From the NCBI RefSeq assembly GCF_011250645.1, contig NZ_JAANNO010000009.1, positions 62,001 to 126,000 on the forward strand: a DNA stretch of 64,000 bases, given 5' to 3'. The notes beneath the pieces were generated by a model. That model worked only from the letters and a program-made list of their open reading frames with translations, ran no database searches and was not told the DNA's origin. The translations under genes were made by a program, and so were the position numbers. The stretch is from Motilibacter aurantiacus (lineage in GTDB: Bacteria > Actinomycetota > Actinomycetes > Motilibacterales > Motilibacteraceae). How positions within the stretch are numbered: the stretch's first letter is position 1; every line of letters begins with the position of its first letter. Below, one piece after another: positions 6,307 to 44,854 of the stretch.

Positions 6307-6308
6307 CG

Positions 6309-26973: not shown

Positions 26974-26997
26974 CGACAACTGGTGACAACCGCTTGC
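26974..26997 (+). promoter_or_regulatory. LacI-type operator B, upstream of the larE-larB-larC-lacI operon
   Basis: Within this 24-bp element a half-site CGACAAC stands exactly 10 bp before a palindrome TGACAA-CCGC-TTGCCA (26984-26999). The same half-site-plus-palindrome layout occurs at 32376-32399 (18 of 24 positions equal) and, on the minus strand, at 44855-44878 (19 of 24). It ends 88 bases before the larE start. The CG-centred palindrome is typical of LacI-family sites, and a LacI protein is the last gene of this operon. Confidence 0.65.
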
Positions 26998-27085
26998 CAT
27001 CGTCAGGTGACGGCGTGGTTGCATCCGTGTGAACGGCAGGTCGAGGCGCGAGGGACCCGGCAGCGATGGGCGGAAGGCGGGGCGG

Positions 27086-27937
27086 ATGCAGCTCACCACC
27101 TTGGCGAGGGCCGAGCGGGCCGCCGCCGACAGGGTCGTCGACGCCTTGCGCGGCCAGGGCCGGGTCGGGGTGGCGTTCTCCGGCGGGGTGGACTCCTCGG
27201 TGCTCCTGGCCCTGGCTGCCGCGGCGGTCGGCGGCGACAACGTCCTCGCCGTGCTGGGGGTGTCGCCCAGCCTGGCGAGCAGGGAGCGGGCCGCTGCCCA
27301 CCGGGTGGCCGAGCACATCGGGGCCCCCCTCCTCGAGCTGGAGACGTCCGAGGCCGGCCTGGAGGCCTACCGGCGCAACGCGCCCGACCGGTGCTTCCAC
27401 TGCAAGAACGAGCTGTTCGCGGCCATCGACGACGACGTCGTGCGGCAGCACGGGCTGACCGCCGTCGCGTACGGGGAGAACGCGGACGACGCGCGGCGCC
27501 CGGACCGCCCGGGGGCGCGCGCCGCGGCCGCCCACCGCGTCCTCCGGCCCCTCGCGGACGCCGGGATGGGCAAGTCGACCGTACGCGCCATCGCCCGGGC
27601 CCTCGCCCTTCCGTGCGCCGACAAGCCCGCGGCCCCCTGCCTGGCGTCACGGATCCCGCACTTCAGCGAGGTCACCCCCGAGAAGCTACGCCAGGTCGAG
27701 GATGCCGAGGCAGGTTTGGCAGAACTCGGGTTCGCCGAACTCCGCGTCCGCCATCACGGAGCGGTCGCGCGGGTCGAGTTGCTCCCCGAGGACCTGTCGA
27801 GGGCGGCTGCGGAGCCGATGCGCACGCAGATCGTCCGGACGGTGCGCGCCGCCGGCTTCGACTTCGTGGCCGTCGACCTCGCCGGGATCCAGTCCGGCGC
27901 CTTCACCCTCCCGCTGGTGGAGGCGCGGCATGGCTGA
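27086..27937 (+). CDS. larE: LarE, sulfur insertase for nickel-pincer cofactor (copy 2)
   Basis: This 283-residue PP-loop protein has the P-loop SGGVDS at 32-37 and the LarE-specific NAPDRCFHCKNELF, YGENADD and PAAPCLASRIPH segments. Cys103, Cys106 and Cys185 repeat the three-cysteine pattern of the first LarE. It opens a tight operon: larB starts inside its last codons (8-base overlap). A purine-rich GGAAGGCGGGGCGG precedes the ATG. It is clearly paralogous to, not a copy of, the larE at 6.3-7.2 kb, so the two loci were acquired or diverged long ago. Confidence 0.94.
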   Translation: MQLTTLARAERAAADRVVDALRGQGRVGVAFSGGVDSSVLLALAAAAVGGDNVLAVLGVSPSLASRERAAAHRVAEHIGAPLLELETSEAGLEAYRRNAPDRCFHCKNELFAAIDDDVVRQHGLTAVAYGENADDARRPDRPGARAAAAHRVLRPLADAGMGKSTVRAIARALALPCADKPAAPCLASRIPHFSEVTPEKLRQVEDAEAGLAELGFAELRVRHHGAVARVELLPEDLSRAAAEPMRTQIVRTVRAAGFDFVAVDLAGIQSGAFTLPLVEARHG

Positions 27938-28607
27938 GCTCGCGGCCACGGCCGCTCCGCTGTCGGCCTTCGCCGACCTGGACTACGACCGCGCCCGGCG
28001 CAGGGGCTATGCCGAAGCGGTCTTCTGTGAAGGCAAGACGCCGGAGCAGGTGCGGGCCATCGCCGCGGCCCTGCGGGAGCGCGAGGTGCCGACCTTGTTC
28101 ACCCGGGCGAGCGAGGGCCACGCCCGCGCCGTCCGACAGGAGCTCCCGGACGCGGCCCACGACCCGGAGGCCCGGCTGCTCGCATGGCCGTCCGAGCCCC
28201 CGGAGCCGTCGGGCGGCCTGGTGGTGGTCGTGGCCGCCGGCACGTCGGACCTGCCCGTCGCGCGAGAGGCCGTGCTCACCGCCCTGCACCTGGGCCGGCA
28301 GTGCGAGCTGGTCGTCGACGTGGGGGTGGCGGGGCTGCACCGGGTGCTCGCGCGCCTGGAGCTCCTGCGCCGCGCCAGGGTCGTCGTGGTGGTCGCGGGC
28401 ATGGACGGCGCCCTCCCTGCCGTGGTCGCCGGCCTGGTGAGCGCCCCCGTCGTCGCAGTCCCCACCTCGGTCGGGTACGGCGCCGCCTTCGGCGGGCTCG
28501 CCCCCCTGCTCGCCATGCTGAACGCCTGCGCTCCCGGTGTCGCCGTCGTGAACATCGACAACGGGTACGGCGCCGGCCACCTAGCCGCGCAGATCGCGCA
28601 GGCATGA
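27930..28607 (+). CDS. larB: LarB, nickel-pincer cofactor carboxylase/hydrolase (copy 2)
   Basis: The 225-residue protein carries the LarB core: DYDRARRRGYAEAVFCEGKTPEQV, AAGTSDLPVA, VDVGVAGLHR, AGMDGALPAVVAGL, PTSVGYGAAFGG and VNIDNGYGAGH. It supplies the dicarboxylated pyridinium nucleotide used by LarE. Translation is coupled both ways: the start overlaps larE, and the stop overlaps the larC start (ATGA). It differs widely from the LarB at 7.2-7.9 kb outside the motifs. Confidence 0.95.
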   Translation: MAELAATAAPLSAFADLDYDRARRRGYAEAVFCEGKTPEQVRAIAAALREREVPTLFTRASEGHARAVRQELPDAAHDPEARLLAWPSEPPEPSGGLVVVVAAGTSDLPVAREAVLTALHLGRQCELVVDVGVAGLHRVLARLELLRRARVVVVVAGMDGALPAVVAGLVSAPVVAVPTSVGYGAAFGGLAPLLAMLNACAPGVAVVNIDNGYGAGHLAAQIAQA

Positions 28608-29788
28608 GCGCGCGGGCCGTCGGCTGGGTCGACGCCTCCTGCGGGGCGAGCGGAGACATGCTGCTCGGCGCCCTGACCGACCTGGGCGCGGTGGACGTCG
28701 GCGACGTCGCCGAGCGGCTGCAGCTGGCCGTCTCGGTGGAGACCGAGCCGGTCCTGCGCGCAGGCATCGGCGCCACCGCGGTACGCCTCCGGCCGGCTCA
28801 CGAGCAGCCCAGCCGCACCTGGAGGGACATCCGCACGCTGCTCGAGACGCTCCCGCTCCCGGAGGCGGTGGGCCGGCGCGCGCTGTCCACCTTCGCCCGG
28901 CTCGCGGCGGCCGAGGGCGCGGTGCACCGGGTGGCGCCCGAGGACGTGCACTTCCACGAGGTGGGGGCCGTGGACTCGTTGATGGACGTGGTGGGAGCGT
29001 GCTGGGGCCTCGCCGCCCTGCGCCTCGACACGCTGCACTGCACGCCACTCGCGCTCGGCGCCGGCACCGTACGCACCGCCCACGGCGTCCTGCCGGTGCC
29101 CGGCCCGGCGGTCGTGCGCGTCCTGGCCGACGCGGCGGTGCCGGCGCACGGCGGGCCGGTGCCCGTCGAGCTGTGCACCCCGACGGGTGCTGCCCTGCTC
29201 GCGGAGCACGTGGACGTCTGGGGGCCCATGCCGGCGCTCGTGCTCGACCGCGTCGGCACCGGCGCGGGCTCGCGCTCCTTGCCCGACCGCCCGAACGTGC
29301 TGCGCGTGCTCGTCGGGGCCGCCGCGGCCGCCGCGGCCGACGCGGCGAGCGAGCGCGAGATCCTGATGGAGACCAACGTCGACGACCTCGACCCCCGGCT
29401 CTGGCCGGCGGTGCTCCGCCGGCTGATGGACGCGGGGGCTCGGGACGCGTGGCTGACGCCGATCCTCATGAAGAAGGGGCGCCCCGCCCACACGTTGAGC
29501 GTGCTGGCCGGCGCGGCCGATGCCCACGCGCTTCGCGAGCTCGTCTTCCGCGAGACCTCTGCTCTCGGCGTGCGCGAGCGGGCGGTTGCCAAGCACGCGC
29601 TGGAGCGCAGCTTCCGGACCGTCGAGGTCGACGGAGCGGTGGTCCGGGTCAAGGTCGGGCTCCTACACGGACAGGTGGTCAACGTGCAGCCGGAGTACGA
29701 GGACGTGGCAGCCGCCGGCGCCGCGCTCGGTCGCTCGGAGAAGTCGGTTCTCGCGGCGGCGATCGCGGCCGCGGAAGCGGCCCGATGA
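28604..29788 (+). CDS. larC: LarC, nickel insertase for the pincer cofactor (single ORF)
   Basis: This is a 394-residue CTP-dependent cyclometallase that installs nickel in the pincer nucleotide. The LarC signature begins with WVDASCGASGDMLLGAL; further motifs are HRVAPEDVHFHEVGAVDS (His-rich), TPTGAALL, METNVDDLDPRLW and TPILMKKGRPAH. In Lactobacillus the gene needs a programmed frameshift (larC1/C2), whereas here it is one uninterrupted frame. It is the only larC in the window and must serve both LarA-type enzymes unless another copy exists elsewhere. It overlaps the lacI start by ATGA. Confidence 0.95.
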   Translation: MSARAVGWVDASCGASGDMLLGALTDLGAVDVGDVAERLQLAVSVETEPVLRAGIGATAVRLRPAHEQPSRTWRDIRTLLETLPLPEAVGRRALSTFARLAAAEGAVHRVAPEDVHFHEVGAVDSLMDVVGACWGLAALRLDTLHCTPLALGAGTVRTAHGVLPVPGPAVVRVLADAAVPAHGGPVPVELCTPTGAALLAEHVDVWGPMPALVLDRVGTGAGSRSLPDRPNVLRVLVGAAAAAAADAASEREILMETNVDDLDPRLWPAVLRRLMDAGARDAWLTPILMKKGRPAHTLSVLAGAADAHALRELVFRETSALGVRERAVAKHALERSFRTVEVDGAVVRVKVGLLHGQVVNVQPEYEDVAAAGAALGRSEKSVLAAAIAAAEAAR

Positions 29789-30918
29789 CCACCGGGCCGC
29801 TCCCACGGGCGCGCCAGGTGCCCGACCCGGCCGACCGCATCCGCTACGGCGAGGAGGGCAGGAGCGGGGCAACGCCGACCATCTACGACATCGCCCGCGA
29901 GTGCGGTGTCGCGGCCTCGACCGTCTCGCGCGCCTTCTCCCGGCCGGGGCGCGTCAAGGCGGAGACCGCACAGCGGATCCGGGACACCGCGGAGCGCCTG
30001 GGCTACCGGACGAACCCGCTGGCGAGGGCCCTGCCCACCGGCCGCACGTCGATGATCGGGCTCGTCCTCTCCGACATCACCAACCCGGTCTACTTCGAGG
30101 TCATCCGGGGGGCGCAGTCCGCCGCCGCCGAGGCGGGGTTCACCATGCTGCTGGCCGACACCCAGGAGAGCGGCGAGCTCGAGCGGTCGGCGCTGGAGCA
30201 CTCGCTGCCGGTCGTCGAGGGCATCGTGCTGGGCGGCTCGCGCATGTCCGACTCGGCCATCCGCATGGCCGCGAAGCAACGGCCCATGGTCGTGCTCAAC
30301 CGCCTCGTCGCCGACGTGCCGAGCATCGTGTCCGACAGCGCGCGGGGCATGCGGCGCGCGGCCGAGCACCTGGGCGAGCTGGGCCACGAGAGCATCACGT
30401 ACGTGGCCGGCCCGGAGGCCTCCTGGGCGGACGGCATGCGCTGGCGGGCCCTGCGCGAGGCCGGGACCGAGCTCGAGCTGAAGACGCGCCGTCTGGGGCC
30501 GTACCCGCCGACGCTCAAGGGCGGGATCCGTGCGGCGGAGGACCTGCTCGGCCAGCCGAACACCACCGCGGTGGTGGCCTACAACGACCTGCTCGCGATC
30601 GGCCTGGTCCGCGGCCTGGCCCGGCTCGGCGTGCAGGTGCCCGAGCAGGTCAGCGTGGTGGGCTTCGACAACATCTTCGGCGCGGACTTCTGCAGCCCGG
30701 CGCTGACGACGGTGGCGTCGCCGTTGCGGGCACTGGGAACGGCGGCCGTGCGCGACCTGGTGGCACAGCTCGCCGGCGCCCCGGTGCGGACCGGGCAGGC
30801 GGCTGTCCTGCCGGTCCGCCTCGTGGTCCGGGAGTCGACCGCGGCGCCGCTCACCCGGCGGCGGGGCGCGTCGCGCCTGCGCCGCATGACGGCCCCGGTG
30901 CCGGCGGGCAGCGCCTGA
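29785..30918 (+). CDS. LacI-family transcriptional regulator
   Basis: This 377-residue protein has about 30 extra N-terminal residues, then a LacI helix-turn-helix (TIYDIARECGVAASTVSRAFS), hinge helix (NPLARALPTG) and periplasmic-binding-protein-like effector domain (IGLVLSDITNPVYFEVIRGAQ onwards), ending with a short basic tail. It is the last gene of the larE-larB-larC operon, joined by ATGA. Four shared 24-bp palindrome-containing elements near larE, larA, uxaC and the 44 kb operon are its likely targets. The effector is probably a hexuronate, a hexonate or their derivative. The regulator is probably a repressor of its own operon. Confidence 0.93.
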   Translation: MTTGPLPRARQVPDPADRIRYGEEGRSGATPTIYDIARECGVAASTVSRAFSRPGRVKAETAQRIRDTAERLGYRTNPLARALPTGRTSMIGLVLSDITNPVYFEVIRGAQSAAAEAGFTMLLADTQESGELERSALEHSLPVVEGIVLGGSRMSDSAIRMAAKQRPMVVLNRLVADVPSIVSDSARGMRRAAEHLGELGHESITYVAGPEASWADGMRWRALREAGTELELKTRRLGPYPPTLKGGIRAAEDLLGQPNTTAVVAYNDLLAIGLVRGLARLGVQVPEQVSVVGFDNIFGADFCSPALTTVASPLRALGTAAVRDLVAQLAGAPVRTGQAAVLPVRLVVRESTAAPLTRRRGASRLRRMTAPVPAGSA

Positions 30919-30962: not shown

Positions 30963-32234
30963 CTAGGCGCGGGGGCGCACCCGGAAGAGCACCTCCCCGG
31001 CCTGCGGCACGACGAGGGTGTCGGGATCGGCCTGCCATCCGGCCACGTCCAGAGTCGCCGGGTCGAGGTACTCGAGGCCTGCCGCCCTCGTCGCCTCCTC
31101 GCTGATGCCCGTGGCGAGGGTGACCGTGATCCGGCAGTGCTCGCCGGCCTGCTCGTCGTACGTCCCCTGCCCCCGCAGGTGGGTCGAGTGCGCCAGCACT
31201 CCCCAGTGGTGGTGGCGGTAGCGGTCCCACTGCTTGAGGAAGAAGTCCCGACAGTGGAAGCCGATTTCGGTGATTTCCTTGTGCACCCGGCTGAAGTCCG
31301 TGACGTGCGGAGCGTAGATCACGACCTCCCCGCCGTCGGCCACCGCAGGCTCGACCTTGTACATCCCCTTCGCCGCGGTCCACATGTCGTCGTACCGGTC
31401 CGGCATGAGGGAGAGGACGCGCCGGACGGGGCGGTCGAGGTACCGCACGTGCACCAGGGCCGACACCTCCGCCGCTGCCGCCCACGACTCCTCGGGGGAG
31501 CCGAAGGCGACCGCGTGCAGCGCTCCGGTCCCCGACTGGACGACGACGCTCAGGGCGTACTGCCGGCTGGGGACGAGCGCGGCGGCGTCGTGGATGAGCG
31601 CGCGCACCGGCGTGACGCCGGGAGAGCCGATCATCTCGGCACTGGTGATGAGGGCCCCCAGCCAGTGGGAGAGGTCGATCACCTCCTGACCCGCGACTCC
31701 CGGGAAGAGGTATTTCGCCCCTCCGGAGAAGCCGACGACCTCGTGGGGGAACACCGGCCCCAGGATCAGCGTGACGTCGTTCTCGACGACGGCCCGGTTG
31801 ACGCGGACGTCGACGGCGACGTCGAGCATCCCGCCCGACAGCTCGTTGACCCGCGCGGGGCCGATGGCGCCCAGCGACACGAAGGTCTCCGGGTCCCACC
31901 ACTCGTGGTTCTGCACCGTCATGCCGGGGTAGCGCTCGGCGAGCCCGCCTTCGGGCAGCTGCAGGAGCCGGGCGATCTCCTCCTCGGACATCGGCGCATG
32001 GGTGCCCAGTGCGATCAGCACGGTCATCCGCGCGACGCGCGGGGCGAGCGCCTGGTGCACCGCGTCCAGCAGCGCGGGCAGCGGGCAGCTCCGGGTCCCG
32101 TCGGGCACCAGGACCACGACGCTGCGACCGTCGACGTCCTGCCCGTCCAACTGCCGCCGGACGAATTGCCGCACCTGGCCCGCGGAGAGGATGCCCTGTC
32201 CGTCTCCGAGAATTGCCGCGCTCGAGGCGCTCAT
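30963..32234 (-). CDS. larA: Canonical LarA-family nickel-pincer 2-hydroxyacid racemase/epimerase
   Basis: All catalytic positions of lactate racemase are present in this 423-residue protein: Asp45/Arg48 (PDGTR), His79 (GTHAPM), His164 (FPHEVVGFSGG), Lys174 (AKYLFPG), which would bind the pincer nucleotide, and His190, 16 residues later, as nickel ligand. The 10 and 16 residue spacings equal those of Lactobacillus LarA (174-184-200). GGGAG precedes the ATG. It is divergent from uxaC and shares the control region. Members of this superfamily racemise lactate, malate and phenyllactate or epimerise aldonates such as D-gluconate. Given the neighbours, D-mannonate/D-gluconate 2-epimerase is my preferred reading; lactate racemase is the alternative. 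The symbol names the family, not a proven activity. Confidence 0.9.
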   Translation of the reverse strand: MSASSAAILGDGQGILSAGQVRQFVRRQLDGQDVDGRSVVVLVPDGTRSCPLPALLDAVHQALAPRVARMTVLIALGTHAPMSEEEIARLLQLPEGGLAERYPGMTVQNHEWWDPETFVSLGAIGPARVNELSGGMLDVAVDVRVNRAVVENDVTLILGPVFPHEVVGFSGGAKYLFPGVAGQEVIDLSHWLGALITSAEMIGSPGVTPVRALIHDAAALVPSRQYALSVVVQSGTGALHAVAFGSPEESWAAAAEVSALVHVRYLDRPVRRVLSLMPDRYDDMWTAAKGMYKVEPAVADGGEVVIYAPHVTDFSRVHKEITEIGFHCRDFFLKQWDRYRHHHWGVLAHSTHLRGQGTYDEQAGEHCRITVTLATGISEEATRAAGLEYLDPATLDVAGWQADPDTLVVPQAGEVLFRVRPRA

Positions 32235-32293
32235 GGTCGTCTCCCGTGTGCGATGAGCTTCCGGTTCATGCAGTCATCCGGCAGGGCCCACGC

Positions 32294-32317
32294 ACAACAC
32301 CTTGCCGTGAATTGCCG
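32294..32317 (-). promoter_or_regulatory. LacI-type operator D, facing larA
   Basis: Read on the minus strand, CGGCAATTCA then CGGCAAGGTGTTGT gives a half-site and an imperfect palindrome with the same 10-bp offset as operator A (17 of 24 positions equal). On the plus strand this appears as two TTGCCGTG units 10 bp apart. It lies 59 bases upstream of the larA start, in the larA-uxaC intergenic region. Confidence 0.5.
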
Positions 32318-32375
32318 TGCTTTTTCCGGGGTGCCAGAACTCGCCCGATCGGCGGTGCAGGGTGTCAAGGGCACG

Positions 32376-32399
32376 CGGCAACTGACGGCAAGCGATTGC
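32376..32399 (+). promoter_or_regulatory. LacI-type operator A, facing uxaC
   Basis: CGGCAACTGA is followed 10 bp later by CGGCAAGCGATTGC, in which GCAA-GCGA-TTGC (32388-32399) is a CG-centred palindrome. It ends 31 bases before the uxaC ATG, where a repressor would block initiation. It matches operators B (26974) and C (44855) in 18 of 24 positions. Confidence 0.65.
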
Positions 32400-32430
32400 T
32401 GACGAAGCTGCCGGATTGCAGCATGACGAC

Positions 32431-33864
32431 ATGCTCACCGACACCCGGATGATCAGTGCGCAGCTGGACGTGCACCCGGACAGGCTGCTTCCGGCTGACC
32501 CGGGGACGCGGGAGATCGCCCGGCGCCTCTACCGGGCCGTGGCCGACCTCCCGATCGTGTCGCCGCACGGGCACGTGGACCCGCAGCTGCTCCTCCACGA
32601 CCGCCCGTTCGCCGAGCCGGCGAGCCTCTTCGTCACTCCGGACCACTATGTGACCCGCTTGCTGCACGCGAGCGGCGTACCGCTGGCCGAGCTGGGTGTC
32701 GGCGAGGAAGTGCTCGACGAGAAGGCCTCCCGGACGGCATGGCGGCGCTTCTGCGAGAACTGGCACGTCTTTCGGGGAACGCCGGTCCGCGGCTGGCTCG
32801 AGTCCGAGCTCTTCGAGATCTTCGGGGTGCGGCTGCGGCCGAGCTGGGACACGGCGGACGTGATCTACGACCAGGTCGTCGAGTGCCTGGGGCAGCCCGC
32901 GTTCCGGCCACGCGCCCTGTTCGACCGCTTCGGCATCAGCGTGCTGGCGACGACCGACGACCCCTGCGACGACCTGTCGGCCCACCGGGCGCTTGCGGCG
33001 GACCCGAGCTTCTCCGGACGTGTGCTTCCGACGTTCCGGCCCGATCGGCTCCTCGAGGCGGGCGACCCCGGCTGGGCCGAAGCCGTCGCGCTGCTCGGCG
33101 ACGCGGCCGCGACCTCCACCGGGACGTACGCCGGATGGGTCGCGGCGATGGAGGCCCGCCGCCGGTACTTCATCGACCACGGCGCCACCTCGGCCGACCA
33201 CAGCCACGAGGACGTCGGCACGGAGCCGTTGCCGCCCGAGGACGCCGAACGTGTCTACCAGGCAGCGCTGCGTGGGTCCGCTGACGCGAGGGACACGGCT
33301 GCGCTGCGCCGGCACATGCTGCTGGAGATGGCCCGCATGTCGTGCGAGGACGGCCTGGTGATGACGCTGCACCCGGGGGTACGCCGGGGGCACCACCGTC
33401 CGACCCTCGCGCGCTTCGGGGCCGACACGGGCCATGACATCCCGCTGCACGGCTCCTTCACGGACCCGCTCCGACCGCTCCTGGAGCGGTTCGGCACCCA
33501 TCCCAACCTGCACCTGGTCCTGTTCACCCTGGACGAGACGACGTTCTCCCGCGAGCTCGCGCCGCTGGCCGGCTTCTACCCCTCGGTGTACGTCGGGGCG
33601 CCGTGGTGGTTCCTCGACGCGCCCGACGCCATCCGGCGCTTCCGCTCGGCGGTCACCGAGACGGCGGGGTTCACCCGCACGTCCGGCTTCATCGACGACA
33701 CCCGCGCCTTCTGCTCGATCCCGGCACGGCACGACATGGCCCGCCGTCTCGACAGCGGCTATCTCGCCGGGCTGGTGGCCGAGCACCGGCTCGGCGAGGA
33801 CGAGGCGTACGAGACAGCGGTGGACCTCGTCACGCAACGGCCCCGGCACGTGTTCAAGCTGTGA
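32431..33864 (+). CDS. uxaC: Glucuronate isomerase (uronate isomerase)
   Basis: I chose the ATG at 32431 (477 residues); TTG 32416 and ATG 32449 are alternatives, and none has a strong ribosome site. UxaC converts D-glucuronate to D-fructuronate and D-galacturonate to D-tagaturonate. The amidohydrolase-fold metal site starts with PHGHVDPQLLLHDRPF; further motifs are FGISVLATTDDP, LPTFRPD, TLHPGVRRGHH, YVGAPWWFLD and GFIDDTRAFCSIPARHD, with the length usual for the family. The stop overlaps the next start (GTGA), so isomerase and reductase are made together. The gene is under operator A. Confidence 0.95.
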   Translation: MLTDTRMISAQLDVHPDRLLPADPGTREIARRLYRAVADLPIVSPHGHVDPQLLLHDRPFAEPASLFVTPDHYVTRLLHASGVPLAELGVGEEVLDEKASRTAWRRFCENWHVFRGTPVRGWLESELFEIFGVRLRPSWDTADVIYDQVVECLGQPAFRPRALFDRFGISVLATTDDPCDDLSAHRALAADPSFSGRVLPTFRPDRLLEAGDPGWAEAVALLGDAAATSTGTYAGWVAAMEARRRYFIDHGATSADHSHEDVGTEPLPPEDAERVYQAALRGSADARDTAALRRHMLLEMARMSCEDGLVMTLHPGVRRGHHRPTLARFGADTGHDIPLHGSFTDPLRPLLERFGTHPNLHLVLFTLDETTFSRELAPLAGFYPSVYVGAPWWFLDAPDAIRRFRSAVTETAGFTRTSGFIDDTRAFCSIPARHDMARRLDSGYLAGLVAEHRLGEDEAYETAVDLVTQRPRHVFKL

Positions 33865-35210
33865 GCCACGAGCGACCCGGCCGTCCCGTCACCGCGCTCC
33901 ACCTCGGCCTCGGCTCGTTCTTCCGAGCCCACCAGGCGTGGTACACCGACCGGGCCGACGACGCCGAGTCCTGGGGCATCGCCGCCTTCGCCGGGCGACG
34001 GCCAGATCTGGCCACGGCTCTGGCGGCGCAGCAGAACGCCTACACGCTCGTCACCCGCAACGCCGGGGGAGACGAGTACGCCACCGTCCGGTCCCTGGCG
34101 GCCTGCCACGTCGCGGACGACGGCGAGGCCTGGGGCGGCTACTTCGCCTCCCCCGAGGTCCGGGTCGTCACCCTGACGGTGACCGAGGCGGGCTACCGAC
34201 GCGACGGCTCCGGCCGGCTCGACCGGCGGGACCCGCAGGTGGAGGCGGACATCTCGGCGCTGCGGTCCGGCCACGGCGCCGACGTGCGGACCGCGCCCGC
34301 GAGGCTGCTGGCGGGGCTCCGTGCCCGACGGGCCGCCGACGCCGGGCCGATCGCGCTCGTGCCCTGCGACAACCTCGCGGACAACGGCGCCGCGCTGCAG
34401 CAGGTCCTGCTGGACATGGCGGAGGCGGCGGACCCCTCGCTGCTGCCGTGGATGCAGGAGCAGGCCCGCGTCGTGGCCACGATGGTGGACCGCATCACGC
34501 CGGAGCCCACGGCCGCCGACCGGCAGAGCGTCGCAGCCGCCACAGGCGTCGACGACCGGTGCCCCGTCGTCACCGAGCCCTTCACCGAGTGGGCCCTGGC
34601 CGGGGACTTCCCCGGCGGCCGGCCGGGCTGGGAGAGCGCCGGCGCCGTCTTCACCGCGGACGTCCGGCCGTTCGAGGAGCGCAAGCTCTGGCTGCTGAAC
34701 GGCGCGCACTCCCTGCTGGCGTACGCGGGTGGGCTGCGCGGGCACGCGACCGTCGCGGAGGCAGTGCGCGACGGCGCCTGCCGGGAGTGGGTGCTCGCCT
34801 GGTGGGACACGTGCACCCCGCACCTGCGCCTGCCCGGCGCGGACGTCGAGCTCTACCGGCAGGCGCTGCTGGAGCGCTTCGGGAACCCGCGGTTGCAGCA
34901 CCGGCTCGAGCAGATCGCCACGGACGGCTCTCAGAAGCTGCCGGTGCGCATCGTTCCCGTGCTCCGCGCCGAGCGTGCCCGCGGCAACGTCCCCACGGCA
35001 GCGGCCCTCGTGCTGGCGGCGTGGCTGACGTGCCTGCGGGACAGGGGCTCCGCCGTGCGCGACGTGCGGGCCGCCGAGCTGCTCGGGCTGGCGGAGGGGC
35101 GGCTCGAGGACGCCGCGCGCCGCGTCCTGGCCGCCCTGGGCGACGACCTCGGCGACGACGACGAGCTGGCCCGCGCCGTCGTGGCGGCCACCGGCGGCCT
35201 TCGCGGCTGA
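33861..35210 (+). CDS. Mannitol dehydrogenase-family hexuronate reductase (UxuB/UxaB-like)
   Basis: This 449-residue protein starts at a GTG that overlaps the uxaC stop. The N-terminal NAD(H)-binding region begins LHLGLGSFFRAHQAWYTD, and VPCDNLADNG, VTEPFTEWALAGDFPGGRP and the catalytic FEERKLWLLNGAHSLLAY (Lys, Asn, His) define polyol/hexuronate dehydrogenases. Following UxaC it should reduce D-fructuronate to D-mannonate, or D-tagaturonate to D-altronate. The expected next enzyme, mannonate or altronate dehydratase, is absent here. It ends before a strong hairpin. Confidence 0.92.
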   Translation: MSHERPGRPVTALHLGLGSFFRAHQAWYTDRADDAESWGIAAFAGRRPDLATALAAQQNAYTLVTRNAGGDEYATVRSLAACHVADDGEAWGGYFASPEVRVVTLTVTEAGYRRDGSGRLDRRDPQVEADISALRSGHGADVRTAPARLLAGLRARRAADAGPIALVPCDNLADNGAALQQVLLDMAEAADPSLLPWMQEQARVVATMVDRITPEPTAADRQSVAAATGVDDRCPVVTEPFTEWALAGDFPGGRPGWESAGAVFTADVRPFEERKLWLLNGAHSLLAYAGGLRGHATVAEAVRDGACREWVLAWWDTCTPHLRLPGADVELYRQALLERFGNPRLQHRLEQIATDGSQKLPVRIVPVLRAERARGNVPTAAALVLAAWLTCLRDRGSAVRDVRAAELLGLAEGRLEDAARRVLAALGDDLGDDDELARAVVAATGGLRG

Positions 35211-35427: not shown

Positions 35428-38400
35428 TCAGTAGCGCAGCTGCTCGAGGTAGGCCATGCTGTTGCAGGCCGAGGTGATGCCGTCCGGCCGCGGGTTGTCG
35501 TGCTCCACGAAGCCGTACTCCAGCCCGGCGAGCTCGGCGTTGGCGAACACCGAGGCGAAGTCGATCGTCCCCGTGCCCACGTCGGCGAAGGTGCCGTTCG
35601 CCAGGTCCTTCAGGTGCATCAGCGGGAAGCGCCCCGGGTACTGCTGCAGCAGCCCGACCAGGTCCGTGCCCACACGGGCCGCCCAGTGCAGGTCGAGCTC
35701 CATCGCCACGTACTCGGGGTTGGTCTCCCGGATCAGGATGTCCAGGCCGCGCACGCCGTTCCCGAGGTCGACCAGCTCGTAGTCGTGGTTGTGGAACGCG
35801 ACCGTGATCCCCTCGGCGGCGAGCTTCTCACCGACCTCGTTGAGGATCGCGGCGACCTCCGCGTACCGCTGCGCGTTCCAGCTCGCCGAGCCGGAGATGC
35901 GGACGTACGTGGCCCCCGCCGCCTTGGCCTCCGCGATCACGCCGGGGAGGTCGTTCTGCAGGTTGCCCAGGCTCACTCCCAGCGACGGCACCTGGAGGCC
36001 GGCCGCCTTCGCCAGCGGGGCGAGCTGCGCCGCGGTGTAGCCGTAGAAGCTGCGCACGCTGCCCGAGGGCTCGATGTTCTGGTACCCGCAGGAGCTCAGG
36101 GCCTGCAGCGTGGCTGTGGTGCTCGGTGCCGGCAGCTGCGCGCGGACCGTGTACCCCACCAGCCCGATCCTGCTCATGTCGAGCGCCCGGTCGCGCGTGA
36201 CGGGCTGTGCCCGGCCGATCCGGGACGCCTCGGCCGCTGCGCGGATCGCGGTGCGCTGGGCCGCGGACAGCACCCCGTCGTCTACGAGCCCGGCGGTGAC
36301 CCGGTCCACGGTCCCGAGGAACGCGCTGTGGGTCGTGAAGGGCGCGTCCCGCATGACGGCGTCCATCACCGTGCAGCCGTCGCCGAGGTCGTAGTTGGGC
36401 ACCCCGGACGCAGCGTCCCCGGTGCCGAAGTGCACCGTGTGGGACGGGCCGTAGCCGTACTGGCAGGAGTCCTCGGTGTCGTCCACGGTCTGCAGCTCGG
36501 CGATGGCCGCCTCGGCCGCGGAGACCAGCGCCTGCCGCGCCGCCAGGTCCGCGGCGTCGCCCTTCACCTGGTTCTCCACGCGGGCCACGAACTGCTCGAG
36601 GTACCCGATCGCCCGCAGCTCACTGCCGGCGGCGAGCTCCCGGATCGCCCGGTCCAGCGGGAAGCGGACGTTCGCCGCGGTCCGCTCGCTGATCGTGCCG
36701 TCGGTGGTGTAGCCCGACAGAGCGGTGGCGATGCCGTCGAGCGCCGTGCCCGCCGCCACTGCGGGGACGGAGAGCCGGATCGTCGTCCAGTCGCGTGCCC
36801 CCTCGCTGTCCGAGGCGATGAGCCGCGCCGTGTACTGCCCGGCGTGGGCGTAGGTGTGGCTGACGCGCGCGCCCTCCGCGGTGGTGCCGTCGCCGAAGTC
36901 CCAGGTGTAGGAGTCGATCTGACGGCCCTCGGGTGCGAAGGCGAAGCCGTTGAACGAGACCGTGCGGGCGTTGTTGCCGCTGCCCCGGGCGGCCGTTGCC
37001 GTCACCGTGGGAGCGGCGTCGTCGGCCACCCCGCGGCCGTGGAAGACCAGCCAGTCCAGGCTGAGGGCGTCGGCGCCGCCCGCCGGCTGCCCCGCAGCCT
37101 TGAACACCAGGTAGAGCGTCGTGGTGCCGGGCCGGTCGCCCACCGGGATCGTGGGCGACGTCGGCTGGCCCGCGGCGGTGGCAGCAGCGACCTTGACCTC
37201 GCCGACCTTCGGGCCCGTGGGGCTGTCGACCCGTACCTCGATGACGGAGTCGTACGCGCCGCGCCGGGCACCGAGGGTGAGGCTGTGGATCCCGCTCAGG
37301 TCCACCGGGTCGAAGGACACCCAGTCGCCGTCGTCGATGTCGCCGACGTAGCGGTCGCCCCGGGCGCTCGTGTCCGTCACGGTCTGGACCCCGCTGCCCT
37401 GGGTGTAGAACTCGGCCTCCTTGTCGCGGACCTGGAGCTGGATCCGGTCCTGCCCGCTCAGGGCCGGCACGCCCGGTGCGCCGAGGTCGGTGTAGCCGGC
37501 GCCGAGCACCGGGTAGACGTTCTGGCCCGGCCCGTGGTCCGCGGGGTCGAGGTACACCGAGCCGCTGCACCCCGTGTAGTTGTCCAACGGGTGCGCGTGC
37601 GTGTCGTGGCCCAGCTGAGTGTTGACCGCGACCTCGTCGCAGTCGATCGTCCCGGCGGTGGAGGACCCGTCCTCGGCGTCGGTGACGCGGACCGCGTACG
37701 GCACGGTGTCACCGAGCTCGGCGAAGCCACCGGCCAGCGGGGTGGTGAACGCCACCGTCGGTCGGGTGTTCCCGACGGTGACCGTGCGGACCGAGACGCC
37801 GGTGGAGCCGTCGGTGTCCGTCACGGTGAGGCGCGCCGTGTACTGCCCGTTCGCGGTGTAGGTGTAGGTGGGGTTCGGGGCGGTGGAGTCGACGACCTTG
37901 TCGTTGTTGAAGTCCCACGCGTACGTGATGTTCAGCCCGTCGGGGCTGTGGCTGCCCGCGCTGTGAAACTGCACCGCGAGCGGCGCCTGCCCGGAGTCGA
38001 CGTTGCTCGTGAAGGAGGCCACCGGACGACGGCCCTCGGCCACGTAGTCGATCCGGTAGATGCCTGCATCGGTGTTCGTGCTGCCACGTCCCGCGCCGTT
38101 GCCTCGGCCGAAGTCGATGATGTAGAGCGACCCGTCCGGCCCGAACTCCGCCTCGAACGGCGAGACGAAGGTCTGGTTCGGGAGCCAGCGCTGCAGTGCC
38201 TGCAACTGGCTCGTCTGCTCGTCGAGCGTCGCCACCAGGTAGCGGTTGCGCGTGTACTCGGAGACGAACCACTTGCCGTCGAAGTACTGCGGGAACTTGG
38301 TCTTGACGTCGAGGTCGGGGTCGTAGCGGTAGACCGGCCCGGCCATCGGGCCGGCGCCACCCGAGCCGAGGTCGGGGTACTGCGCGTGGGCGCCGTACCC

Positions 38401-39489
38401 GTAGGCGAGCATCGGCGCCTGCGACGGCGGAAGCTCGCGCAGGCCGGTGTTGTTGGGCGACTCGTTCACCGGGGCGGCACAGTTGAAGGTCGCGCCGGAC
38501 TGGCGTGTCGCCCAGTCGTAGTCGACGTACGGCTGGTTGTTGCCGTGACAGTACGGCCACCCGTGGTTCCCGGGGCCGGTCATCCGGACCAGCTCGACCA
38601 TGCCCTCCGGTCCGCGCAGCGGGTTGGCCGAGCGGGCGTCGGGCCCGTAGTCACCGATCAGCACGGCGTCGGTCTCCGGGTCGACCGTGATGCGGAAGGG
38701 GTTCCGGAACCCCATGCCGTAGATCTCCGGCCTGGTCTTCTCGGTGCCCGCGGTGAAGAGGTTGCCGGCCGGGATGGAGTAGGTGCCGTCCGCCTCCGGG
38801 TGGATCCGCAGGATCTTGCCACGCAGGTCGTTGGTGTTGGCCGACGTCGCCTGCGCGTCCCAGGCCCTGCGGCCGGGCCGCTCGTCCAGCGGGGTGAACC
38901 CGGACTGGTCGAAGGGGTCGGCATTGTCGCCGGTGGCGGCGTACAGGTTGCCCGCGGAGTCCATGGCGAGGGACCCGCCCATGTGCGAGTTCGCCCGGCC
39001 CTCGCCGCGCCAGATGGTGAAGTCGAGCAGCCGCTTCTCCGACGCGCGGTCGATGACGTTGTTCGCCCCCATGGTGAACCGGGACAGGTTCATCTTCGGC
39101 ACCTGCGGGTCGCTCCACATGAGGTAGAGCCAGCCGTTCTGCTGGAAGTCGTTGTCCAGCGTGAGGCCGAGCAGCCCGTCCGACTGGGTGAGCAGGCTCA
39201 GCGGGTAGTCGAGGTCGAGCGCCGTCGTCACCTGCAGGGTCTCCTGGTCGATGACCCTGACCTCGCCGGTGCGCTGGATGTAGATGACCCGGCCGTCGTC
39301 GGCGACGTCGAGCTCGAACGGGTCGGCCAGGCCCTGGGTGACGAGCGGCACCTTGTCGAAGTTCGACGGGTCCATCGGGTTCGCGGGGTCGGCCGCGTGG
39401 GCTGCCCCCGTCACGGCTGGTGCGGTCATGAGCCCGGCTGCGACGACGACGCCCAATGCCGCGGTCAGGGCACGACGATGTGCTCTCAT
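35428..39489 (-). CDS. Secreted sugar dehydrogenase-PKD-CBM6-PKD-TIM barrel fusion
   Basis: The ATG at 39489, with GGAG 7 bases upstream, gives 1353 residues. Order: signal peptide (1-33, cleavage after AHA); glucose/sorbosone dehydrogenase beta-propeller (about 45-500; SDGLLGLTLD, NSHMGGSLAMD, EIYGMGFRNPFR, GNHGWPYC); PKD domain (about 510-595); linker with a Cys pair; CBM6-like sugar-binding domain (about 700-840); second PKD (about 845-935; YTWDFGDGTTAEG); a FIMAH-like helical segment (about 945-1020); and a C-terminal TIM-barrel isomerase/epimerase domain (about 1090-1353; FHNHDYELVD, MELDLHWAARVG, PLMHLKDL). The first domain would oxidise sugars at the surface, possibly with PQQ. A secreted TIM-barrel isomerase on the same chain is unusual. 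Confidence 0.9.
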   Translation of the reverse strand: MRAHRRALTAALGVVVAAGLMTAPAVTGAAHAADPANPMDPSNFDKVPLVTQGLADPFELDVADDGRVIYIQRTGEVRVIDQETLQVTTALDLDYPLSLLTQSDGLLGLTLDNDFQQNGWLYLMWSDPQVPKMNLSRFTMGANNVIDRASEKRLLDFTIWRGEGRANSHMGGSLAMDSAGNLYAATGDNADPFDQSGFTPLDERPGRRAWDAQATSANTNDLRGKILRIHPEADGTYSIPAGNLFTAGTEKTRPEIYGMGFRNPFRITVDPETDAVLIGDYGPDARSANPLRGPEGMVELVRMTGPGNHGWPYCHGNNQPYVDYDWATRQSGATFNCAAPVNESPNNTGLRELPPSQAPMLAYGYGAHAQYPDLGSGGAGPMAGPVYRYDPDLDVKTKFPQYFDGKWFVSEYTRNRYLVATLDEQTSQLQALQRWLPNQTFVSPFEAEFGPDGSLYIIDFGRGNGAGRGSTNTDAGIYRIDYVAEGRRPVASFTSNVDSGQAPLAVQFHSAGSHSPDGLNITYAWDFNNDKVVDSTAPNPTYTYTANGQYTARLTVTDTDGSTGVSVRTVTVGNTRPTVAFTTPLAGGFAELGDTVPYAVRVTDAEDGSSTAGTIDCDEVAVNTQLGHDTHAHPLDNYTGCSGSVYLDPADHGPGQNVYPVLGAGYTDLGAPGVPALSGQDRIQLQVRDKEAEFYTQGSGVQTVTDTSARGDRYVGDIDDGDWVSFDPVDLSGIHSLTLGARRGAYDSVIEVRVDSPTGPKVGEVKVAAATAAGQPTSPTIPVGDRPGTTTLYLVFKAAGQPAGGADALSLDWLVFHGRGVADDAAPTVTATAARGSGNNARTVSFNGFAFAPEGRQIDSYTWDFGDGTTAEGARVSHTYAHAGQYTARLIASDSEGARDWTTIRLSVPAVAAGTALDGIATALSGYTTDGTISERTAANVRFPLDRAIRELAAGSELRAIGYLEQFVARVENQVKGDAADLAARQALVSAAEAAIAELQTVDDTEDSCQYGYGPSHTVHFGTGDAASGVPNYDLGDGCTVMDAVMRDAPFTTHSAFLGTVDRVTAGLVDDGVLSAAQRTAIRAAAEASRIGRAQPVTRDRALDMSRIGLVGYTVRAQLPAPSTTATLQALSSCGYQNIEPSGSVRSFYGYTAAQLAPLAKAAGLQVPSLGVSLGNLQNDLPGVIAEAKAAGATYVRISGSASWNAQRYAEVAAILNEVGEKLAAEGITVAFHNHDYELVDLGNGVRGLDILIRETNPEYVAMELDLHWAARVGTDLVGLLQQYPGRFPLMHLKDLANGTFADVGTGTIDFASVFANAELAGLEYGFVEHDNPRPDGITSACNSMAYLEQLRY

Positions 39490-39513
39490 GAAGACTCCAT
39501 AGGTCAGCAAAGG

Positions 39514-39537
39514 CGCTCGACGGGAGCCCGTCGAGCG
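39514..39537 (-). terminator. Hairpin just upstream of the secreted dehydrogenase gene
   Basis: CGCTCGACGG and CCGTCGAGCG form a perfect 10-bp stem over GAGC, followed on the minus strand by a short CCTTTG. It ends the Gfo/Idh operon or acts as an attenuator, since it stands only 24 bases before the next start codon, too close to place a promoter between. Confidence 0.55.
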
Positions 39538-39627
39538 GATCCGTCTGTGCGAGGGGGTCACCCCCCGTGCGGCCCCGCTCCCCCTGCCCGGGGACGATCG
39601 GTGGAGCGCGGGCCGGAGCCCGTGCGG

Positions 39628-40671
39628 TCAGTGCACCGCTGCGCCGAGCTCGGCCGGCCGGGCCTGCGCCCCGGTCCCCGCGGCCGCGTAGATCGCCGCC
39701 AGCAGGCGCACGGTCTCGACGGCGTCGTCCGGGCCGTTCAGCGGCTCGACCCCGTCGTCGAGGGCGCGGAGCACGTCACGCCACTGGTTGAGGTGCCCCG
39801 CATGCCCGATCGCGAGCGGGTCGGCGGCCCCGCTGGCGATCCTCGCCGGGTCGGCCGGTGGCGGAGGGACACCGTCGACGTCCCAGCGCAGCACCTCGCC
39901 CTGCCCCAGCTGGACCACTCCACGGGAGGTGTGGAGCGTGAGGGTCGCGGGGTCTCCGGGCGGCGTGGCCGTGGACGTGCTCACCACGCCGAGGGCGCCG
40001 GACTCGAAGCGCAGCGTGGCGACCGTGGTGTCCTCGGCCTCCATCGCGTGCCCGAGCGTCCCGTAGTGAGCCGTGACGCTCTCGACCGGGCCGCACAGCC
40101 AACGCAGCAGGTCCACGTTGTGCACCCCCTGGTTCATCAGGGAGCCGCCCCCGCCGGCCATCGACGTGCGCCACGGTGCGCTCCGGTAGTAGGCCTCGTC
40201 GCGGTACCAGTGGACGTGCGTGATCGCGAGGCGTACGTGCCCGAGGGCTCCGGAGTCCAGCGCGTGCTTGAGGTAGCGGTACTCGCTCTCGAACCGTCGC
40301 TGGGAGACCATCGAGACCACGAGGCCCTGCTGGCGAGCGAGACGGGCGACCTCGAGCGCATCGCCGACGGTGAGGGCCAGCGGCTTCTCCACGACGATGT
40401 GACGCCCGGCCTTGAGGGCGTCCCGCGCCAGGGCGGCGTGGGTCTGGGAGGGCGAGCAGATGGCGACGACGCTCACCCGGGGGTGGGAGAGCACCTCCTC
40501 GGGCGCGAGCATCGGCGTGCCGGGCCAACCGGCTCCTGCGGCGGATGCTCCTTCGACGCCGCTGTATGCGACGAGCTCGACCCTGTCCGCCAGCTCGTGC
40601 AGCGCCTGGGCGTGGATCAGGCCGATGCCGCCGAGGCCGATGATCCCGACGCCGAGCCTGCCCTCTGTCAC
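39628..40671 (-). CDS. Gfo/Idh/MocA-family sugar oxidoreductase
   Basis: A GTG start with AAGGAG 8 bases upstream gives 347 residues. The N-terminal Rossmann domain opens with VGIIGLGGIGLIHAQAL; the EKPLAL motif (catalytic Lys) and the C-terminal substrate domain with NQGVHNVDLLRWL are typical. Such enzymes oxidise or reduce a ring or C-3 hydroxyl of sugars and inositols with NAD(P). It is the last gene of a minus-strand operon with a TIM-barrel isomerase and an ABC importer, the combination seen in 3-keto-sugar and inositol breakdown. Confidence 0.92.
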   Translation of the reverse strand: MTEGRLGVGIIGLGGIGLIHAQALHELADRVELVAYSGVEGASAAGAGWPGTPMLAPEEVLSHPRVSVVAICSPSQTHAALARDALKAGRHIVVEKPLALTVGDALEVARLARQQGLVVSMVSQRRFESEYRYLKHALDSGALGHVRLAITHVHWYRDEAYYRSAPWRTSMAGGGGSLMNQGVHNVDLLRWLCGPVESVTAHYGTLGHAMEAEDTTVATLRFESGALGVVSTSTATPPGDPATLTLHTSRGVVQLGQGEVLRWDVDGVPPPPADPARIASGAADPLAIGHAGHLNQWRDVLRALDDGVEPLNGPDDAVETVRLLAAIYAAAGTGAQARPAELGAAVH

Positions 40672-40731
40672 CGCGTGCTCCTTCCGCTGCAGGCGCGGGC
40701 GACGGTCGTGCGGGACGAGGCCGGCAGTCGC

Positions 40732-41550
40732 TCAGTCATGGGCGGACGCCGCGCCGAGCAGGACCCGGATGCGCTCGGTGGCACGGGCGAAGCGGGGGTC
40801 GACCATCGTCGCGGCGTAGTCCCTCACGTCCGGCAGGCCGGGTGTGAGCGTCTCCACGACGCGGCCGGGGCGCGCGCTCATGATGACGATCCTGTTCCCG
40901 AGGTAGACAGCCTCCGCGACCGAGTGGGTGACCAGGACGATCGTGGTGCCCGTCTCCCGCCAGACCCGGTTCATCTCGAGGTTCATCTGCTCGCGGGTCA
41001 GCGCGTCCAGCGCGCCGAACGGCTCGTCCATGAGCAGGACCCTGGGCTCGTGGAGAAGAGCGCGGCACAGGGCGACGCGCTGCTGCATCCCGCCCGAGAG
41101 CTCGTGCGGCAGCGCCTGCTCGAAGCCGGTCAGCCCGGTCAGTGCGATGAGCTCGTCGGCACGCGCCTCTGCCTTCCGCTTGTCCATGCCGCGCATCTCC
41201 GCCTGCAGCAGGATGTTCTTGCGCACGCCCCGCCATTGGAGCAGCGCGGATCGCTGGAACGCGAAGCCGATGTCACGCTGCGGGCCCGTCACGGGCTTCC
41301 CGTACAGCGCCACCTTCCCCTCCGTCACCGGCGTGAGGCCGGCGATGAGCTTGAGGAGGGTCGACTTGCCGCAGCCGGACGGCCCGGCGATCGTCACGAA
41401 CTCCCCGGGAGCGACCACCATCTCCACGTCGTCGAGGGCGACGGTCACCGACCGCTTCGTCGTGAACCGCTGGGTCAGGCCACGGACCTCGATGACCGGC
41501 TCGGCCGTGCGGCCGGCGTGCCCCGACTCCGCCATGGTCGGGGCCGTCAC
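40732..41550 (-). CDS. ABC transporter ATPase, SsuB/TauB type
   Basis: The GTG start overlaps the binding-protein stop (GTGA), giving 272 residues; an ATG at 41535 is also possible. Motifs: Walker A GPSGCGKST, Q-loop FAFQRSALLQWRG, signature LSGGMQQRVALCRAL, Walker B LLMDEPFGALD and switch His in VTHSVAEA. The length and lack of an OB domain place it with nitrate/sulfonate/taurine/pyrimidine-precursor importers, not with MalK-type sugar importers. It works with the next two genes upstream in the operon. Confidence 0.94.
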   Translation of the reverse strand: MTAPTMAESGHAGRTAEPVIEVRGLTQRFTTKRSVTVALDDVEMVVAPGEFVTIAGPSGCGKSTLLKLIAGLTPVTEGKVALYGKPVTGPQRDIGFAFQRSALLQWRGVRKNILLQAEMRGMDKRKAEARADELIALTGLTGFEQALPHELSGGMQQRVALCRALLHEPRVLLMDEPFGALDALTREQMNLEMNRVWRETGTTIVLVTHSVAEAVYLGNRIVIMSARPGRVVETLTPGLPDVRDYAATMVDPRFARATERIRVLLGAASAHD

Positions 41551-42578
41551 AGCTCGGCCCCGAACTGGGAGGCCCAGTACGCCGCCGGGTCGTCCTTGCC
41601 CTCGAAGTCCGTGTTCTGCGCGAGGAACGAGATCGTGCGCGCCCACTGGTCCTCGGTGTTGGCTCCGGGGGCGGGAGCGGCGTCGAGGCCCAACAGGCCC
41701 ACGGTCAGGTCCATCTGGGCCTTGAGGACCTCAGGGGCAGGGGCTTGCTCCGCCATCTCCGACATGGCCGCGACAGCGGCGTCCTGGTTCGCCGCAGCCT
41801 GCTTGAACGCCTGCGAGGTCGCCCGGACCATCGACTCGACCAGCTCGGGGTCGTCCTCGATCGTCGAGTCGCTCGCGACCAGGCCGGTGCCCAGCAGGTT
41901 CATGCCGAAGTCCGCGAACGGCAGGGCCTCGACCTCCTTGCCGGTCTGGTTCTCGATGGTCGGCGCCTGGTCGTGGTAGAACCCCTGGATCGCGTCCACC
42001 TTGCCCTCGATGAGGGCAGCGATCTTCCCGGACGCGTCCATGTTGACCACCTGCACGTCGTCCGGGTCGACGCCGTTGAGCTCGAGCCAGGCGGGGAACG
42101 TGCCGTACATCGCGTCCCCGGGCGTGCCGCCGACCCGCTTGCCGACGAGGTCGGCCGGCTTGGTGATGCCCTTGTCGGCGAAGAACTCCACCGAGCTCGG
42201 CCCCTTCTGCAGGAAGACGCCGGCGCTCTTCACCTTCATCCCCGAGTTGATGCCCTTGAGCAGCGGCGGCGTGTCGGCCCACCCGAAGTCGGTGTTGCGC
42301 TGCGCGACCTGCTGCACGGTGTTCCCGGAGCCGTTGCCCGGCTGGATCGTGAGGTCGATCCCCTCGGCCTCGTAGAGGCCTTCCTTGACCCCGTAGTAGA
42401 AGGCGGCGTGCTCGCCGTAGGGCACCCAGTTCAGCGTCAGGGTGACCTCCTCGAGGCCGCCCTCGCTGCCCGCCGGCTGGGCGTCGGGCTCGTCGGAGTC
42501 GCCCCCGCACCCGCTGAGCACCAGTGCTGCGGCCGCCGCCAGCGGAAGGATCGATGTCAGGGAGCCAAAGCGTCGCAT
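41547..42578 (-). CDS. SsuA/THI5-like ABC substrate-binding lipoprotein
   Basis: This 343-residue lipoprotein has a signal with the lipobox LVLSGC (lipid on the Cys) followed by an acidic linker. The mature part shows the NMT1/THI5-like fold: LTLNWVPYGEHAAFYYGVKEGLYEAEGIDL, DFGWADTPPLLKGI, and KRVGGTPGDAMYGTFPAWL. These receptors bind sulfonates, nitrate, riboflavin or thiamine precursors and aromatic acids. Its place in a sugar-type operon makes the ligand uncertain. Confidence 0.93.
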   Translation of the reverse strand: MRRFGSLTSILPLAAAAALVLSGCGGDSDEPDAQPAGSEGGLEEVTLTLNWVPYGEHAAFYYGVKEGLYEAEGIDLTIQPGNGSGNTVQQVAQRNTDFGWADTPPLLKGINSGMKVKSAGVFLQKGPSSVEFFADKGITKPADLVGKRVGGTPGDAMYGTFPAWLELNGVDPDDVQVVNMDASGKIAALIEGKVDAIQGFYHDQAPTIENQTGKEVEALPFADFGMNLLGTGLVASDSTIEDDPELVESMVRATSQAFKQAAANQDAAVAAMSEMAEQAPAPEVLKAQMDLTVGLLGLDAAPAPGANTEDQWARTISFLAQNTDFEGKDDPAAYWASQFGAEL

Positions 42579-42625
42579 CGTGTGGGACCTCTCTCGAAGG
42601 AACGCGGACAGCAGGACGGGACGAG

Positions 42626-43633
42626 CTACGAGCCCGACAGCAGGGGGTTCTCGCGCCGGCTCGAATGCCAGGGGATGAGGAGGCCCTCGAGTGCCTCGAT
42701 CGCGACGAAGAGCAGGATGCCGATGGCGGACATGAGGATCAGGTCCGCGAACAGCAGCGGCGCGTCCAGGTTGCCGCTCGCCAGCAGGAGCACGTACCCG
42801 AGGCCGCGGTCCGCGCCGACGAACTCACCGACCACAGCCCCGACGACGGCGAGCGTCACCGCGACCTTCAACCCGGACATGAGCTGGGGCAGGCTGGTGG
42901 GGAAGCGGATCTTCGTGAACGTCTTCCACCGGGAGGCGCCCATCGTGGCGGAGAGCTCGAGCAGCTCCGGGTCGACCGACCGCAGTCCCGCGACGCCGGA
43001 GACCACCACCGGGAAGAACGCGATCAGCACGGCGAGGACGATCTTCGGCGTGAGGCCGAAGCCGAACCACACCACCAGGATCGGCGCGATCGCGATCTTG
43101 GGGATCACCTGGGCGAAGAGGATCAGCGGGTAGAGGGCCTTCTCCGCCGTCTTCGAGTAGACGAGCAGGACGGCGGTGGCGACCCCGATCACGGTCGCGA
43201 GCACGAAGCCGATGATGGTCTCCTGCGTGGTGACCCACGTGTGCTCGAGCAGCATCCGCCACTCCTCGACGAGCGTCTCGGCGACGGCTCCGGGCGGCGG
43301 GACGAGGTATGAGGCGACCATCTCGCGCCAGGCGACGAACCACCACACGAGCAGGAGGAAGGCCAGCACGAGGGCGGGCCTCCAGGACACGGAGAGCAGG
43401 GCGAGCGCTCGACGCCCCACGCGGCCGGCGACACCCGGCCTGCTGACCGCGTCCGCCCGGTCACCGCCCCTCGGGCCGCCGGCTTCCGGGACACCACCCG
43501 ACGTGGCCGTTCCCTTCCGCTCCAGGACGTGCGGGCCGTGCGTCCTCATCTCCGCTTCCCCTCGTCGATCCTCGTGTGCTCGGGTTGCCTGCGCCGCGAG
43601 CCGCGCCGTCGCCGGGCCGCTCGTCCCGCTCAT
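42626..43633 (-). CDS. ABC transporter permease, SsuC/TauC type
   Basis: I chose the ATG at 43633, which overlaps the stop of the upstream gene (ATGA), giving 335 residues with a long, 75-residue hydrophilic N-terminus. Six membrane helices follow. The EAA-type loop ELLELSATMGASRWKTFTKIRFPTSLP is characteristic of SsuC/TauC/NrtB permeases. It forms the membrane pore for the SBP and ATPase encoded next. The long N-terminal extension is low-complexity and of unknown use. Confidence 0.93.
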   Translation of the reverse strand: MSGTSGPATARLAAQATRAHEDRRGEAEMRTHGPHVLERKGTATSGGVPEAGGPRGGDRADAVSRPGVAGRVGRRALALLSVSWRPALVLAFLLLVWWFVAWREMVASYLVPPPGAVAETLVEEWRMLLEHTWVTTQETIIGFVLATVIGVATAVLLVYSKTAEKALYPLILFAQVIPKIAIAPILVVWFGFGLTPKIVLAVLIAFFPVVVSGVAGLRSVDPELLELSATMGASRWKTFTKIRFPTSLPQLMSGLKVAVTLAVVGAVVGEFVGADRGLGYVLLLASGNLDAPLLFADLILMSAIGILLFVAIEALEGLLIPWHSSRRENPLLSGS

Positions 43634-44457: not shown

Positions 44458-44516
44458 CGAGCATTCCCTGCTTCCTCTTGTCGTTGGGCGAGCTCATTGC
44501 GCAGTGGACGGCGCCG

Positions 44517-44822: not shown

Positions 44823-44854
44823 GCCGGAAGCATTGCCAGGGGGTTCCTCGGCTG

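Follow-up and report, generated by a model that had tools for sequence, protein, structure and literature searches.

Homologs of LarA that epimerise D-mannonate and D-gluconate were shown in 2020, and this activity has been measured (PMC7583248, PMC11770544). GntE2 of Thermotoga maritima, whose structure is 4nar, interconverts these two hexonates (PMC7583248), and the same species carries the operon gnd-uxaRED-gntEK (PMC3750489). The wiring through D-mannonate and D-gluconate had been proposed for T. maritima by Rodionova et al. in 2012, as that work is cited in two later papers (PMC7583248, PMC6978723). Within the LarA superfamily, the hexonate groups 18, 19 and 20 are marked by an E-V/S loop after the catalytic histidine and by a tryptophan in alpha-11 (PMC7583248).

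In the current study, we describe a LarA-type gene of Motilibacter aurantiacus, which is located on a 64,000-nucleotide stretch of DNA with a G+C content of 73% (hereafter 'the window', meaning the whole stretch that was analysed). We estimate a probability of roughly 0.85 that the cluster formed by this gene, uxaC and a reductase gene serves to break down the plant sugar acid glucuronate by way of a nickel-pincer epimerase. The original prediction for this locus held that no pathway with such wiring had been described, a claim that gives way to the T. maritima proposal as the two later papers report it. The type of enzyme and the idea of the pathway were therefore already published, and what is new here is that UxuA was not found in this genome or in 43 of 50 genomes that carry an ortholog.

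Organization of the cluster

The LarA-type ORF (positions 30963 to 32234, minus strand) codes for a protein of 423 amino acids and forms a head-to-head pair with uxaC (32416 to 33864, plus strand). The product of uxaC is a glucuronate/galacturonate isomerase that scores 536.6 bits with the NCBIfam model PRK02925, for which the cut-off is 387. Next on the same strand is a gene for a long-chain reductase of the mannitol dehydrogenase family (33888 to 35210, start approximate), which we propose to be a fructuronate reductase. This ORF as listed (33603 to 35210) overlaps uxaC, and its start is likely to lie near position 33888. Both the N- and the C-terminal Mannitol_dh domains of Pfam (PF01232 and PF08125) are present, and on this basis the sequence assigns the protein to the family with certainty. 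Its best NCBIfam models are those for D-arabinitol 4-dehydrogenase (282 bits) and fructuronate reductase (239.9 bits, cut-off 603), both of which are far below their cut-offs; the tagaturonate reductase model, likewise below its cut-off, gives 143 bits to the 240 of fructuronate reductase. Thus, of the mannitol-dehydrogenase-family hexuronate reductase that had been predicted, the family stands, whereas no NCBIfam cut-off is passed for the substrate, and we infer the UxuB role (fructuronate to D-mannonate) from context only.

The genes for synthesis of the NPN cofactor precede the LarA-type gene in an operon on the plus strand, and each of them scores above its NCBIfam cut-off. These are larE (27029 to 27937; TIGR00268, 268.8 bits against a cut-off of 150), which codes for the sulfur transferase, larB (27930 to 28607, start approximate; NF033503, 279.2 bits against 175), which codes for the first enzyme of the synthesis, and larC (28604 to 29788; TIGR00299 and NF052512 above their cut-offs; PF01969, 5.5e-123), whose product is assigned to nickel insertion. 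The last gene of this operon (29785 to 30918), which overlaps larC by 4 bases, encodes a LacI-family regulator with the Pfam domains LacI and Peripla_BP_3. The arrangement is as originally predicted, both for larE-larB-larC and for a LarA-type gene divergent from uxaC and the reductase gene, and the LacI regulator is an addition that the prediction did not mention.

A second nickel-pincer set is present elsewhere in the window (4978 to 7898), where it adjoins genes for a GH2 glycosidase and an ABC sugar transporter. It includes a LarA-like protein of NCBIfam group 22 (4978 to 6318, minus strand; 472.8 bits against a cut-off of 400), for which no relative of solved structure was found by sequence, together with a LarE-like frame on the minus strand and a LarB-like frame on the plus strand. 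A second larC was not seen in this set.

Characteristics of the LarA-type protein

The LarA-type protein has a Lar_N domain (Pfam; 1.5e-21, 77 bits against a cut-off of 23.3) and a predicted LarA fold across its whole length, and on these grounds it is placed in the LarA superfamily. All six residues named in the original prediction (D45, R48, H79, H164, K174 and H190) are invariant among 33 aligned orthologs, and the same holds for K289, which corresponds to K298 of LarA. The protein thereby retains both the cofactor-binding residues (R48, K174 and H190) and the catalytic residues (D45, H79, H164 and K289). The same ortholog alignment shows E165, V166 and W285 to be invariant, and these correspond to the loop and the tryptophan that mark the hexonate groups.

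Among solved structures, the nearest relative by sequence is 4nar (201.9 bits in a phmmer search), with which the protein is approximately 33% identical; the next, a lactate racemase, scores 39.4 bits. An AlphaFold2 model built from 30 orthologs (mean pLDDT 93.7) leads to the same relative, matching 4nar with a Z of 49.9 and an rmsd of 1.8 Å over 403 residues, compared with a Z of 33 to 36 over more than 360 residues for lactate racemases and a Z of 28 for malate racemase. Thus, by both sequence and modelled fold, the closest characterised relative among solved structures is a GntE. We also considered NCBIfam NF052594, the putative hexonate epimerase of group 18, as a home for this protein and rejected it on a score of 163.3 bits against a cut-off of 500. 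With GntE2 as the closest solved relative and the signature residues kept, the originally predicted conversion of D-mannonate to D-gluconate is well supported by sequence and model, and we regard the protein as a putative D-mannonate/D-gluconate 2-epimerase.

Fate of mannonate and gluconate in the genome

The genome of this organism, which is 98.8% complete, was searched for single protein families. A uxuA gene elsewhere, which the original prediction had named as one of the observations that would count against it, was looked for throughout this genome and not found. There is likewise no candidate for an enolase-type mannonate dehydratase, as the MR_MLE_C matches in the genome are MenC (o-succinylbenzoate synthase) and enolase only. 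Edd was not found in the genome, where the sole ILVD_EDD protein is IlvD, and both the KDPG aldolase family and the small-type gluconokinase (TIGR01313) are absent from it.

On contig C1, which is not the contig of the larA cluster, one strand carries gntP, gnd and a gene for an FGGY kinase, in this order. The best model for this kinase is gluconokinase, with 446 bits (cut-off 648.55, not reached), and the next is xylulokinase, with 303. The location of an FGGY-type kinase beside gnd resolves the apparent break in the pathway that the lack of TIGR01313 creates. Because gntP, gnd and gntK are present, the uptake, phosphorylation and decarboxylation of gluconate would be possible if these assignments hold. 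The search for a gluconokinase that had been suggested yielded both this sub-cut-off candidate and a 6-phosphogluconate dehydrogenase. In this genome, gluconate has an exit through gntP-gnd-gntK, and for mannonate no exit except epimerisation was found.

Distribution and gene associations of orthologs

In a small sample of five genomes from the same family, three carry both LarA and UxaC and two lack the pair, and UxuA is found in none of the five. The two genes are far apart in two of the three genomes that carry both, and thus their link is not due to position alone.

A larger set of 50 ortholog-bearing genomes was gathered by sequence pattern. UxuA is present in seven of these and gave no match in the other 43, several of which are metagenome bins whose completeness is unknown. 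As UxuA was found neither here nor in those 43, nickel-pincer epimerisation looks obligatory. In a neighbourhood of 10 kb around the 50 orthologs, we observed genes for UxaC (12 cases), a mannitol-dehydrogenase-family reductase (10), a D-mannonate oxidoreductase of the SDR type (14), the 6-phosphogluconate dehydrogenase Gnd (8), beta-glucuronidase (4) and gluconokinase (4). The two reductase families are unrelated and substitute for each other between actinobacteria and other phyla, and this exchange supports a mannonate-forming role for the reductase in the window despite its failure to pass any cut-off.

Individual loci exhibit still tighter associations. An FGGY kinase gene adjoins those for the reductase and UxaC in Blastococcus mobilis (locus L003) and in an actinomycete bin (L007), and in Embleya NBC_00896 (L075) the genes for the kinase, UxaC, LarB, LarE, the reductase, LarA, LarC and LacI are found in one stretch. 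Beyond this clade, in Catenovulum adriaticum, uxaC is followed in turn by genes for a TRAP transporter, gluconokinase and LarA and then by larC and larB. A distant homolog in Saccharobesus litoralis (L077, 6449 to 8218) is a fusion of gluconokinase and LarA with 589 residues (kinase domain 10 to 159, Lar_N 170 to 343), and it is followed by larB, a gene of the tagaturonate-epimerase family and gnd. This fusion is annotated merely as a gluconokinase.

The orthologs of Kribbella and Actinoallomurus are located without these uronate and gluconate neighbours. In Kribbella and relatives (L008 to L018 and L029), where the orthologs are 62 to 65% identical to the protein in the window, genes for a flavin-dependent monooxygenase and a berberine-type oxidase are found alongside.

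A candidate operator

In relatives, the palindrome TGGCAANCGNTTGCCA is found repeatedly in the regions upstream of larA, uxaC, lacI and uidA. When up to two mismatches are allowed, 17 of 20 sites fall in upstream windows, which account for 3.8% of the sequence; this enrichment is partly circular because it was in windows of this kind that the motif had been discovered. An operator-like copy just upstream of larE (TGACAACCGCTTGCCA, 26984 to 26999) has one mismatch, and a degenerate copy between larA and uxaC (CGGCAAGCGATTGCTG, 32386 to 32401) has three and is weak when taken alone. The number of matches inside the window alone is not above chance, and no operator-like site for LacI was found upstream of the gntP-gnd-gntK operon. 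An ortholog of the LacI regulator adjoins larA/uxaC clusters in other actinobacteria, and we consider that this protein probably acts as a repressor of larA, uxaC and the cofactor operon.

Operator-like palindromes are also located approximately 30 bases upstream of the orthologs in L008 and L010, which are among the loci of Kribbella and relatives. Another such sequence in the window (TGGCAATCGGTTGTCA, 44853 to 44868) is situated about 395 bases upstream of a series of minus-strand genes, with which it occupies positions 35428 to 44868. These genes code for a 1377-amino-acid GSDH/PKD/CBM6/FIMAH protein with a xylose-isomerase-like TIM barrel at its C-terminal end, a Gfo/Idh/MocA oxidoreductase, an ABC transporter with an NMT1-type binding protein and a sugar-isomerase-like protein, and they could be part of this LacI regulon or of a different one.

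Alternative functions

Other substrates for the LarA-type protein were weighed against D-mannonate. The substrate might be a different C6 sugar acid from uronate metabolism, such as D-glucarate/D-mannarate or D-altronate/D-allonate: a KM has been the reason to suggest a uronic or aldaric acid as the substrate of group 19 (PMC7583248), UxaC also takes galacturonate, and fructuronate is only a candidate substrate for the reductase in the window. We judge this very improbable, however, as relatives in several phyla adjoin genes for D-mannonate oxidoreductase and Gnd, and the glycosidase encoded beside the closer relatives is a beta-glucuronidase. It is similarly improbable, in our assessment, that a kinase acts earlier to make 6-phosphomannonate, which the LarA-type enzyme would then epimerise to 6-phosphogluconate. 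Cell extracts of Lactobacillus suebicus do provide a described route of this kind (PMC6978723), and the FGGY kinase of the present genome is below the gluconokinase cut-off; yet no gene is known for the L. suebicus epimerase, the characterised relatives use free D-mannonate (PMC7583248), and the gluconate permease of the GntP type encoded next to gnd-gntK suggests that the kinase acts on free gluconate.

An ordinary racemase for lactate or another short hydroxyacid, located beside uronate genes by chance, would share the superfamily and the cofactor genes. Nevertheless, the protein scores 69 bits with the lactate racemase model against a cut-off of 460, the bulky Phe-Phe loop is replaced by Glu-Val, and LarA and UxaC co-occur even when they are unlinked, such that we find this explanation hardly credible. 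D-mannonate/D-gluconate epimerisation is the function we favour.

Proposed pathway and its implications

From the genes found present and those not found, together with the conserved residues, the fold and the neighbourhoods reported above, we propose all of the following reactions, along with their direction of flux and their regulation. UxaC would convert D-glucuronate to D-fructuronate, which the mannitol-dehydrogenase-family enzyme is predicted to reduce to D-mannonate. LarB, LarE and LarC would make the NPN cofactor for the LarA-type protein, which could then invert C2 of D-mannonate by proton-coupled hydride transfer to give D-gluconate, with H79 and H164 as the putative acid/base pair and with K174, R48 and H190 expected to hold the cofactor. 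Finally, two enzymes whose genes lie elsewhere beside that of the GntP permease, the FGGY-type gluconokinase and the 6-phosphogluconate dehydrogenase, would carry D-gluconate to ribulose 5-phosphate.

A broader possibility, which we favour with some reserve, is that this organism and many other ortholog-bearing bacteria use glucuronate only via the nickel-pincer epimerase, with UxuA, Edd and KDPG aldolase gone. Growth on glucuronate would then need nickel and larBCE, and all of the carbon would enter the pentose phosphate pathway. If this is true, D-mannonate would be settled as the native substrate of the uronate-linked actinobacterial LarA homologs, a matter left open in 2020. The findings give strong comparative evidence for the role of a broad, uncharacterised clade of LarA homologs. 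Nickel-dependent growth on glucuronate is predicted for bacteria without the textbook dehydratase route, and pathway annotation that looks for UxuA in genomes would call such organisms non-users of glucuronate.

Comparison with known systems

The closest described system is that of GntE2 (LarAH20, 4nar) in T. maritima, which shares with the protein in the window its modelled fold, its catalytic and cofactor residues and the hexonate loop signature. A link to hexuronate genes, Gnd and GntK is also common to both. The two systems differ in regulation, with a LacI-family protein here and a GntR-type regulator (the UxaR-regulated operon) in T. maritima. Moreover, T. maritima keeps kdgA-kdgK-uxuB-uxuA (PMC3750489), and its epimerase is one of two exits, whereas UxuA and KDPG aldolase were not found here. 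GntE1 (LarAH19) of Corynebacterium glutamicum is likewise actinobacterial and found in a uronate gene context, and it acts as a D-mannonate 2-epimerase in vitro (PMC7583248). The galacturonate pathway of L. suebicus similarly joins the upper isomerase pathway to 6-phosphogluconate through C2 epimerisation of a mannonate, but its epimerisation follows phosphorylation and its genes were not identified (PMC6978723), whereas the cluster described here would act on the free acid.
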